64,000 nt of DNA from Candidatus Gastranaerophilales bacterium (lineage in GTDB: Bacteria; Cyanobacteriota; Vampirovibrionia; Gastranaerophilales; Gastranaerophilaceae). Shown piece by piece: positions 10,457-61,279 of the stretch (within the stretch, counting starts at the first letter, position 1; every line of letters starts with the position of its first letter). The stretch spans positions 1 through 64,000 of the forward strand of contig CALVBW010000018.1 of the NCBI GenBank assembly GCA_944325945.1, read 5' to 3'. A program made the translations under genes and the position numbers. The notes beneath the pieces are model-generated. The model was not told where the DNA came from. It saw only the letters and a program-made list of their open reading frames with translations, and did not search any database.

Positions 10457-10488
10457 TCTAATTTATAAAACTTTAGATTGGAGGATTA

Positions 10489-11172
10489 ATGAAAAAGAGA
10501 GGTTTTACTTTAGCCGAGGTTTTAATTACGCTTGGAATTATAGGTGTTGTTGCAGCCATGACTATTCCAACATTAATTGCAAACTATCAAAAAAAGCAAG
10601 CTCTCTCCAAGATAAAACAATCATATTCATTGCTTGCGCAGGCTGTTAAATTGTCGGAAGCATTCAATGGAGATACAAATTATTGGAATTATAACCAAAC
10701 AAATTACAACTTATTCGAGCAGTATATTACGCCTTATTTAAAAAAATCAAAAAAATTAACAAAAGATGATGCCGATATTAAATATTATAAACCTGATGGG
10801 ACAGAAGAACTTTACTTTACCGCACTTTATGATAATGCTGAAATAATCAGACTGGCAAATGGTACTGATATATTTCTACCGAATACACCGGATATAAGAG
10901 GTGGAATGTTTTGTTTTGATATAAATGGTTATAATCAAAAGCCTAATACATTTGGTAAAGATTTTTTTGTTGTAACAATAAAAAAAGGTTATGGTTTATT
11001 ACCTTACGGGCTCCATGAAAGCTCCGATTATGATATCTACGATGATTATGACAGAGATATAATAACCGAAGGCACAAGATACGGCTGCAATACTACAGGA
11101 GGAAACGGCGCATTTTGTATGGCTTTATTAATTTATGACGGATGGGAATTTAAAGAAGATTACCCTTATTAA
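10489..11172 (+). CDS. Type IV pilin-like prepilin (type II pseudopilin family)
   Basis: Exported fibre subunit with the N-terminal methylation/cleavage signal KKRG|FTLAE: cleavage after G5, F6 as first mature residue and E10 as the mature glutamate 5. The hydrophobic helix runs to about residue 31 and includes the lineage-typical VLITLGIIGVVAAMTIP. The C-terminal globular part has the block FDING (143-147), PN (152-153), GKDFF (156-160) and LPYG (171-174). A strong GGAGG site precedes the ATG. It is monocistronic between a promoter and the repeat/terminator at 11218-11320. A second relative is at 60599 and a degenerate one at 51072. Confidence 0.9.
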   Translation: MKKRGFTLAEVLITLGIIGVVAAMTIPTLIANYQKKQALSKIKQSYSLLAQAVKLSEAFNGDTNYWNYNQTNYNLFEQYITPYLKKSKKLTKDDADIKYYKPDGTEELYFTALYDNAEIIRLANGTDIFLPNTPDIRGGMFCFDINGYNQKPNTFGKDFFVVTIKKGYGLLPYGLHESSDYDIYDDYDRDIITEGTRYGCNTTGGNGAFCMALLIYDGWEFKEDYPY

Positions 11173-58942: not shown

Positions 58943-58990
58943 CCTTATCAGGGGATTATTTTAGCGATTTGCTGCCGAATAATAATTTTG

Positions 58991-59527
58991 ATGCGAATTT
59001 TTAAAATTATTATTTTTACATACTTAATATCACTATTTTATTTTAATATATCAGCATGTTGTACTGCATATGACTTGACTGATATGCAAAAAATTGAATA
59101 TTTGTTTAAATCAACGGTCAAACCCGATGGGGCAATGTATTTTACATATGTTCCAAGAGGATTGATAGTTAGTATTGATGAAAATGTGTTTTTTAATCAT
59201 GCACAAGAAAAAATAAAAAAAGAAGGATTATGTGTTTTGAATTCCATCGGTAATGTTCTTGCGCAGACGGATAAATCGTGTGTCATTGAAGGTCATACGG
59301 AAAACGCTGATCCTGAATTTTCGAGTTATAAAGCAAATTGGGAATTATCTTTAGCGAGGGCGCATAGTATTACTATGTATTTAATGAGATATTTAAAAAT
59401 TTCACCGGAACGTCTTTATTGCATAGGCTACGGGGAATTTATGCCATATGTTGACAGCGTTTCAAAAGACGCAGAAATGAATAACAGGATTGATTTTGTA
59501 ATAATAGATTACCATGCAGAGCGTTAA
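58991..59527 (+). CDS. OmpA/MotB-C-like envelope protein
   Basis: A 178-residue protein with an N-terminal hydrophobic segment (about 4-22, signal or anchor) and an OmpA-like peptidoglycan-binding domain: CVIEGHTENADPEFSSYKANWELSLARAHSITMYLMRY (about 100-138, split) and NNRIDFVI with the conserved Arg. Probably ties the envelope to peptidoglycan. I chose ATG 58991, since no better signal exists for the TTG before it. It overlaps the convergent sigma factor gene by 4 bases. Confidence 0.8.
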   Translation: MRIFKIIIFTYLISLFYFNISACCTAYDLTDMQKIEYLFKSTVKPDGAMYFTYVPRGLIVSIDENVFFNHAQEKIKKEGLCVLNSIGNVLAQTDKSCVIEGHTENADPEFSSYKANWELSLARAHSITMYLMRYLKISPERLYCIGYGEFMPYVDSVSKDAEMNNRIDFVIIDYHAER

Positions 59528-60351
59528 GCAACAATTGATTGACGAAGACGGCTGGAGCGATTTTCGCTGAGAATATTTTTAAGTTTCATAATAGCTTGAG
59601 CATGCAGTTGGCATACACGTGATTCAGACATGCTGATTGTTTCGCCTATTTCTTTCAATGTCATGTTTTCCTGATAGTAAAGAACCATTATAATTCGTTC
59701 TCTTTCCGGTAATCTCATTAAAGCCCTCTCCAATTCCTGTTTTACGTTATTTTCTTCGGCATTTTCCTGCGGGTTAAGTTTATTTGTATCCTGAATTGTG
59801 TCTATAATTTCGACACTGTCTTCGGCACTGCCTTTTTTATCATATAATGACGTAATTGTAACATCTTCTGATAATAACTGGTTTACTTTATCGGGCTCCA
59901 TATCGACTTTATTTGCTATTTCTTGTGTCGTAGGAGTACGTCCGAGTTCTTGTTTTAAGGTTTCTTGTGCTTCTTTCAGTACTTTTATTTTCTGTCTTAC
60001 ACTTCGCGGCAAAAAGTCTTGAGATCTGATCTTATCAAGTATGGCACCCCTAATTCTTATTAGTGCATATGTTTCAAATCTGGTATTTTTTTGCGGGGAG
60101 TATCTTTCAATTGCATTTATAAGTCCTTCTACCCCATAGCCTGCTATATCTTCTATTGAGATTGTCGCGGGCAGCGTTACTCTGACTCTGCCAACTACAT
60201 AACGGATTAAATAAATATATTGCACAATTAATGCGTCTCTTGAAGCTTTATCACTTTTATCGGCAAGGTATTTCTCCCAAAGTGCCGTAAGCTCTTCTTC
60301 CGATAAACGCTTAATGTTATTATACGATGTAAAATCGAAATCTTGACTCAT
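59524..60351 (-). CDS. FliA/WhiG-family sigma factor
   Basis: A 275-residue alternative sigma factor. Region 2 is at about 45-110 (LIVQYIYLIRYVVGRV, GLINAIERYSPQKNTRFETYALIRIRGAILD), region 3 with LPRSVRQKIKVLKEAQ is at about 115-165, and region 4 (MTLKEIGETISMSESRVCQLHAQAIMKLK) is at about 230-260. I chose ATG 60351 with GGCGGA before it; a TTG four codons earlier also reads in frame. No flagellar genes are in the window, so it may control another regulon. Confidence 0.88.
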   Translation of the reverse strand: MSQDFDFTSYNNIKRLSEEELTALWEKYLADKSDKASRDALIVQYIYLIRYVVGRVRVTLPATISIEDIAGYGVEGLINAIERYSPQKNTRFETYALIRIRGAILDKIRSQDFLPRSVRQKIKVLKEAQETLKQELGRTPTTQEIANKVDMEPDKVNQLLSEDVTITSLYDKKGSAEDSVEIIDTIQDTNKLNPQENAEENNVKQELERALMRLPERERIIMVLYYQENMTLKEIGETISMSESRVCQLHAQAIMKLKNILSENRSSRLRQSIVA

Positions 60352-60464
60352 TAATCCGCCCAAATATTGTTCAATATATTCCTATTCTATACAATATAGC
60401 CTTAGCTACATCAACTAAAAAGAGGAATTAATTAAAATATCATTAAAGTGATGTAGATTTATGA

Positions 60465-60470
60465 TATAAT
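60465..60470 (+). promoter_or_regulatory. -10 box of the phase-variable prepilin unit
   Basis: TATAAT at 60465-60470, with weak -35. It lies 27 bases before the upstream ATG at 60498 and its strong GAAGGAG site. Confidence 0.5.
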
Positions 60471-60497
60471 AAACTCATAAAAGAAGGAGAAACGCTT

Positions 60498-60545
60498 ATG
60501 GGAAAAGAAAAATCTTCAAAATTCGGGGGGGGGCGACTCCTCTAA
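60498..60545 (+). CDS. Short upstream ORF with G9 tract, out-of-frame start of the prepilin
   Basis: AAGAAGGAG, seven bases before this ATG, is the only strong ribosome binding site here. The frame reads MGKEKSSKFGGG, then RLL and stop, because the G9 run at 60525-60533 ends in a frame that is closed. With ten (or seven) Gs the frame continues without stop for 22 more codons and joins the prepilin at 60599. The extension would be 34 residues before its present Met. The unbroken alternative frame in AT-rich DNA argues that it is normally coding. Confidence 0.6.
   Translation: MGKEKSSKFGGGRLL
60525..60533 (+). repeat. G9 homopolymer, candidate slippage site
   Basis: Nine Gs in an otherwise AT-rich region, within a coding frame. 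Changes of one base would switch translation of the prepilin between the upstream strong start and no coupled start. Confidence 0.8.
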
Positions 60546-60598
60546 GTAGTCATAGAGCGAAATTTGACAGTATTGACGGAATAAACTATAATTCAAAT

Positions 60599-61279
60599 AT
60601 GTCAAATTATAGTTTTAAAAGAGCGTTTACACTTGCCGAGGTATTAATAACCCTTGGAATAATCGCAATAGTTGCGGCTTTGACAATACCGAATTTGATT
60701 TCAAATTATAAAAAGAAAGTGCTTGAAAGCGGTCTGGTAAGGTTTTATTCCACAATTAATCAGGCGATAAAATTATCAGAAATTGAAAATGGCGAAAGAC
60801 GATTTTGGAAAGATTACGGATATGATTCATGTGGTTTTTATGAGCAATATTTGGCGCCATATCTGAAAACAACAGATTACGAGTGTGGTTATTATAATCC
60901 GGCAAATAACAAACATGTTGATTCAAATCTGGCAGTCGGAATATATTTTCAATCAGGTGATATGGCTGTGTTTAGCTATGGAAGATATTTCTATTATATT
61001 TACAACACAAAAAAGTATTATAAAAATTATCCGGTTATGGGGTCCGGTAATCCTGAAGACATTGCTATATCTGATGAATATGGCAAAAATATATTTGTAT
61101 TTGTCTTGCATTCATATAATTTCAATAGCGGGGTTGTTCCTTATGGAATGCAGTATAATGATACCGCTACGGATGAGCAGCTTATGGAAAAATGTGCCGG
61201 AAACAGGCATCTTACTTGTTCAGCATTAATCGCAAAAAATAATTGGAAAATTCCCGAAGATTACCCCTTTGATTTTTAA
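60599..61279 (+). CDS. Type IV pilin-like prepilin, possibly phase-variable
   Basis: A 226-residue prepilin. Its cleavage motif is KRA|FTLAE, with Ala9 in the -1 place (prepilin peptidases accept Ala), F10 as mature residue 1 and E14 as mature glutamate. The helix carries VLITLGIIAIVAALTIPNLI. The globular part contains DEYGKNIFVF and VVPYG, matching the GKD-x-F...PYG block of the other pilin. The Met at 60599 has no ribosome binding site; expression probably depends on the upstream start at 60498 and the state of the G tract. Confidence 0.85.
   Translation: MSNYSFKRAFTLAEVLITLGIIAIVAALTIPNLISNYKKKVLESGLVRFYSTINQAIKLSEIENGERRFWKDYGYDSCGFYEQYLAPYLKTTDYECGYYNPANNKHVDSNLAVGIYFQSGDMAVFSYGRYFYYIYNTKKYYKNYPVMGSGNPEDIAISDEYGKNIFVFVLHSYNFNSGVVPYGMQYNDTATDEQLMEKCAGNRHLTCSALIAKNNWKIPEDYPFDF

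Follow-up and report, generated by a model that had tools for sequence, protein, structure and literature searches.

A large prepilin repertoire in Gastranaerophilales lies mostly one base out of frame at poly-G tracts and may be phase-variable

The genome of Candidatus Gastranaerophilales (G000; 1.63 Mb) from which the analysed stretch of DNA (64,000 nt, here termed the window) derives encodes dozens of prepilins which are preceded by a short leader containing a G or C homopolymer, and most of these leaders are a single base away from the length at which they would be read into the prepilin. This architecture, its repetition across the genome, the constraint on the coding frame, the conservation of the closed pilins and the differences between species in the length of the tract before related pilins are all observed. 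They are best interpreted, with a probability of roughly three in four, as phase variation, mediated by simple sequence repeats, of a very large and mostly OFF prepilin repertoire, although the switching itself is inferred within any one strain.

The original prediction described a strong Shine-Dalgarno (SD) sequence serving an ATG at 60498, a run of nine Gs and a TAA at 60543, and when the sequence was re-read these proved correct to the base (Table 1). The re-reading likewise confirmed that one extra G joins an open frame of 34 codons to the prepilin without a stop; with ten Gs (or seven) the 34-codon leader is MGKEKSSKFGGGATPLSSHRAKFDSIDGINYNSN and proceeds directly into MSNYSFKRAFTLAEVL. 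The prepilin ATG at 60599, which had been proposed to lack a ribosome binding site, is indeed preceded by the sequence aaactataattcaaat, in which there is no SD. The nine Gs form codons 10 to 12 of the leader, and the lengths which do not open the frame result in termination after 15-16 codons, with the other units behaving alike. The distance between the tract and the closing stop is the same in nearly all copies of this leader family. This tract is the only run of seven or more Gs in the window. A gene for a FliA/WhiG-type sigma factor (59524-60363, minus strand) is located divergently, 5' of the pilin leader, and is backed by a gene coding for an OmpA-domain protein (58988-59527, plus strand). 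A second prepilin in the window (approximately 10480-11169, plus strand) has no tract, its normal SD-ATG lying five codons ahead of FTLAE.

Table 1. Coordinates of the leader, tract and prepilin features in the window
Feature	Position	Strand	Remarks
-35-like hexamer TTAAAG, weak	60443-60448	+	16-nt spacer to -10; read from sequence, function inferred
-10 hexamer TATAAT, leader promoter	60465-60470	+	read from sequence
Shine-Dalgarno AAGGAG	60484-60489	+	8 nt 5' of leader ATG
Leader ATG and first nine codons (MGKEKSSKF)	60498-60524	+	ATG 60498-60500; leader family A
G9 tract, proposed frame switch	60525-60533	+	9 = closed; 10 or 7 = open
TAA closing the ATG frame in the G9 state	60543-60545	+	read from sequence
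Out-of-frame leader extension and prepilin signal (..TPLSSHRAKFDSIDGINYNSNMSNYSFKRA)	60534-60625	+	to predicted A↓F cleavage site
Prepilin, N_methyl/IV_pilin_GFxxxE signal FTLAEVLITLGII and DUF6613	60599-61279	+	internal ATG without SD

The protein encoded at 60599-61279 carries a class III signal, KRA↓FTLAEVLITLGII, in which the (G/A)↓F junction, the glutamate at +5 and the hydrophobic stretch are all present. The N_methyl model scores above its gathering threshold and TIGR02532 above its cut-off, and N_methyl is also matched in 32 of 36 relatives. The AlphaFold model (pLDDT 84) consists of a long N-terminal helix (residues 11-63) and a beta-rich C-terminal domain, while a fold search of the PDB with this model returned no match at E<=0.001. 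A prepilin peptidase (Peptidase_A24) and four T2SSE-type ATPases are encoded in the genome; an NCBIfam search of the fragment around the peptidase locus gave no match.

Across G000 there are 82 prepilin-like matches and 66 tracts of seven or more Gs, nearly all of the latter occurring in the order SD, ATG, tract and prepilin. The locus in the window is thus a typical copy of a system which extends through the genome and the family. The number of tracts exceeds chance; base composition predicts roughly three runs of eight or more Gs in the genome by our own estimate. At least 51 tracts lie within SD-ATG leaders which join a prepilin in one frame only, and of these 51 units 47 are closed by one base and four are open in the assembled state. 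Between tract and prepilin the joining frame contains no stop in 4401 codons, as opposed to 402 and 456 stops in the other two frames. While the 51 units were selected for joining, the extension is visibly broken in only about five of the roughly 60 such leaders, with a few others cut off by the end of a contig, so that the selection cannot have created the stop-free result. Several leaders of G000 are found at contig ends (contigs C14, C16, C20, C26 and C32) and some units are truncated there, suggesting that the repeats break the assemblies and that the count of units given here is probably an underestimate.

Three leader families are distinguished in G000, namely family A (AAGGAG...ATG...G9-CGACTC(CTC or TCC)TA), family B (GGAGG...ATGGGCGCAAATACGCAT...G11-CAGTAGC) and family C, with C9 on the coding strand (..KAVQIV-APPP..). 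In all three the ATG frame ends a few codons past the tract, while a one-base change would open a frame that continues for between 20 and about 200 codons and runs into FTLAEVLITLGII. Of 61 leaders, 49 have a -10-like hexamer 6-25 nt before the SD (exactly TATAAT in 32) and 45 use AAGGAG as the SD. No alternative start occurs between tract and prepilin at loci L069, L092, L100 and L102. Among the tract-less prepilins examined, no G tract was found within 700 nt; in most of them an SD-ATG stands 4-13 codons ahead of FTLAE. Some leader extensions (e.g. those of L052, L061 and L107 in G000) are mosaics of translated genomic repeats, including VILNLFQDL, ELVSASHNKEIPKLVRNDK and AGAQNDKNTFLVPYCLSNLVSS, which recall the in-frame insertions of palindromic elements in genes of Rickettsia and may double as recombination blocks.

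The closed pilins are conserved between species. At the locus in the window, the orthologue in G012 is also closed at G9 and its mature part is 94% identical, with a dN/dS of 0.28 (0.024/0.085), and the mature parts of closed pilins in other pairs give values of about 0.1-0.3. The extension in the window (60534-60625), when compared with its orthologue, has a dN/dS of approximately 0.7, is stop-free in both genomes and contains no indel; in most pairs the extensions are nearer to neutral (about 0.5-1), yet stop-free. Judged by these substitution ratios, the closed pilins are under purifying selection, and the combination of a constrained mature part with a near-neutral but stop-free extension is what would be expected of a removable leader on a pilin that is used at times. 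Directly 3' of the orthologous pilin in G012 (L039, 1200-1310), a second leader copy (G8, CGACTCTCCCAG) is present which has no counterpart at that place in G000, and which is read as a recent cassette insertion or loss.

When one genome per species in GTDB 220 was scanned, matches to the family A motif were confined to Candidatus Gastranaerophilales records and to unlabelled bins with contigs matching genomes of the same genus, and 10 of 16 genomes from that genus carry the motif. The more general SD-ATG-polyG pattern is present in up to tens of copies per genome in most members of the non-photosynthetic gut family Gastranaerophilaceae, where dozens of pilin genes per genome carry between about nine and thirteen consecutive Gs; in the remaining families of the order and class, as in a reversed-pattern control, it is practically absent. 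Within the family the number of tracts follows the number of prepilins (Spearman 0.89, n=36, from first-look prepilin counts), and no such relation exists outside it. Poly-G leaders also precede larger pilin-like proteins of 480-510 aa at L379 and L347 (FTLAEMMVVMLI, FTFVEVILVMTL), and at L258 in G024 a protein in which no prepilin motif was found, suggesting that the switch may extend beyond a single type of pilin. Two further origins of the motif were rejected: a dispersed non-coding element present in both orientations, as the reverse copies are SD-ATG leaders with C9 on the coding strand that are closed by one base, and a viral source, the motif being unmatched in 2.9 million viral contigs.

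A relative in which leader and pilin are joined, as the original prediction would have it, was found in G008 (L110), where a 43-residue leader homologous to that in the window has G10 and is open and in frame (MGKMKKTINGGGATPLSRHRAGFDSAVEINYNSDM...GFTLAEV). Related pilins in four species differ in state, with G11 closed in G004, G10 open in G008 and G9 closed in both G010 and G011, and a G9 closed copy in G000 (L086) has a related G10 open copy in G010 (L145). Such differences at homologous loci were recorded between species only. Among 113 units at the genus level, 14 are open (12%, versus the one third expected for random frames), 84 need one base more and 15 one base less. The closed side is nearly fixed within a family, as 77 closed units of family A need a base and four need to lose one, while the corresponding figures for family B are none and nine; families A and C are thus one G/C short of open and family B is one G long. 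Among 113 family A tracts, 84% are G9 (range 7-11). Some leaders are open also in genera beyond the source genus, and there too the side varies: the leaders of G117 are mostly G10 and open at G11, those of G018 range from G9 to G12 within the genome but are mostly G11 and open at G10, and those of G024 are mostly G13 and open at G12. In G006, where tracts of 8, 9, 10, 11 and 15 occur in one genome and the leaders are one short, each unit examined was at its own open length or next to it, units opening at 10 having 9 and three units opening at 11 having 10. A mutational optimum fixed at G9 was rejected as the sole cause of the observed lengths, since family B stands at 11 in the same genome and the lengths in G006 follow the frame. 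Binomial figures overstate the independence of the copies, since those of one leader family have a common origin, and all genomes are drafts, most or all derived from metagenomes, so that the states are consensus states.

The phase-variation model would operate as follows. The promoter and strong ribosome-binding site would drive translation from the ATG at 60498 into the tract, and with nine Gs the ribosome would stop at 60543. Replication slippage by one base, to ten Gs, would allow translation through the 34-codon extension into the prepilin, from which the prepilin peptidase would cleave the signal, and the mature part would join a type IV pilus-like filament. At least 51 such units exist in G000, with comparable numbers in its relatives, and nearly all are OFF in the assembled consensus. 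With single pilins opened by slippage in a minority of cells, a cell would display only a few of the many alternative pilins at once, while the population would hold many combinations. Since MutS proteins are encoded in the genome, slippage need not be very fast. The original prediction of a phase-variable pilin captured in the OFF state is supported by the joined relative and by the families of mixed direction, while a change of length within a strain remains an inference, as do surface display and any benefit in host adhesion or in evasion of immunity or phages.

The uniformity of the closed state is a poor fit to simple, unbiased slippage, given the 84% of G9 in family A, an open share about a third of that expected and the near-constant closed side. 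Selection against many pilins being open at once would produce a uniform closed state, as would programmed transcriptional slippage, which is therefore the main rival. The closed tract would then be the fixed normal state, on which RNA polymerase (or the ribosome) slips to give a set fraction of full-length product as a dosage device, and this is considered a minority possibility. The same weight is given to the related proposal that closure by one base is a selected stable state, RNA polymerase slipping on the G/C runs so that some 50-100 pilins are made throughout the lineage as a low-level regulon and each cell bears a mixed pilin coat, with no individual switching. About 88% of units, in several unrelated leader families and species, are closed by one; the closed frame persists in family B copies in which substitutions break the run (CAA-G10, CAGGA-G8); and tract length tracks frame in G006, all of which would suit programmed slippage. 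The required shift is, however, opposite among families (a base is lacking in A, C and G117 and is in excess in B, G018 and G024), 14 of the 113 copies are open, including at G7, and related pilins differ in tract length between species. The opposite directions exclude one common ribosomal frameshift signal, and a single programmed ribosomal -1 signal was rejected as families A and C need one base more and B, G018 and G024 one base less; RNA polymerase slippage is not excluded. The uniform closed-by-one state sets replication slippage clearly against programmed slippage.

The closed copies may alternatively be a silent archive of mostly unexpressed donors, recombining into a small number of open loci by way of the shared leader and FTLAEVLITLGII blocks. 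The leaders are mosaics of common blocks (PYCLSNLVS is found in 28 of 51 units), and a pilin with a family C leader in G000 matches a G002 pilin with a family A leader at 67% identity, implying that leaders have been exchanged. Most copies nevertheless retain a promoter-like -10, an SD and an ATG, and no copy has a stop in the joining frame, features for which a donor would have no use, making this improbable. Homopolymer runs of G are a known weak point of sequencing and all the genomes are draft assemblies, and the original prediction had allowed for a sequencing or assembly error, with G10 as the true length and the gene constitutively open. This can be set aside with little hesitation, as the G012 assembly also has G9 at the orthologue, dozens of units across several genomes would require the shift, with an error in the opposite direction in other families, G7, G10, G11, G12 and G13 are called elsewhere and 14 of the 113 units are open. 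Least tenable is a regulatory upstream ORF, with the short closed leader separate and the prepilin starting at 60599, for despite the in-frame ATG there and the good SD of the leader ORF, 60599 has no SD, start codons are lacking from the interval between tract and prepilin in several other units, and the joining frame stays free of stops over as many as about 200 codons.

If phase variation is correct, an uncultured lineage of Cyanobacteriota from the animal gut possesses a phase-variable repertoire, built from pilins, which is among the largest of a single class known to us, and the 50-130 prepilin-like genes with ill-fitting starts in these small genomes would be accounted for. The number of surface variants shown at once by a gut commensal, and host or phage pressure opening particular pilins, would become testable in existing metagenomes. 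No description of such a phase-variable pilin system in Gastranaerophilales or Melainabacteria was found in the open-access full text available to the search library. The class of mechanism is known, but the literature searched contains no account of it in this lineage, at this scale, dedicated to a single class of protein or following the closed-by-one rule.

Pilus phase and antigenic variation is familiar from Neisseria, with its poly-G tract in pilC and the pilE/pilS system, where homopolymer frame switching of pilus-related variation is likewise accompanied by a large stock of pilin variants. In Gastranaerophilales, by contrast, the pilins themselves bear the tract, each with promoter-like sequence, SD and ATG, and no single expression locus has been identified. 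The closest precedent is Bifidobacterium breve, a gut commensal in which the pilus genes bbr_0113 and bbr_1889 contain an intragenic G-tract, the reference is OFF and one base fuses the frames, switched ON by the loss of one base, and the ON fraction at one locus reaches about 30% in mice, ten times the level in vitro (PMC9187656). There, replication slippage was measured in two Gram-positive sortase pilus clusters (PMC9187656), whereas in these Cyanobacteriota it is inferred for dozens of type IV-type prepilins per genome. Programmed transcriptional slippage, as in IS elements, also joins two frames at a homopolymer run in a fraction of products, but has been described for A/T runs (PMC1088944), while the runs here are G or C and the needed shift varies between leader families. 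Campylobacter likewise has tens of tracts of seven or more Gs in a small AT-rich genome, mostly inside reading frames and with a mode at nine (PMC6321876; 28-locus assay of NCTC11168, PMC4965091), indicating that such a set can be a phasome. Its poly-G tracts are 53% with nine and 26% with ten repeats (PhasomeIt, PMC6321876), broader in length than family A, which is far more uniform at 84% G9, and belong to genes of many kinds, whereas the tracts of Gastranaerophilales nearly all serve one protein class, sit in common leader cassettes and are closed by one base.
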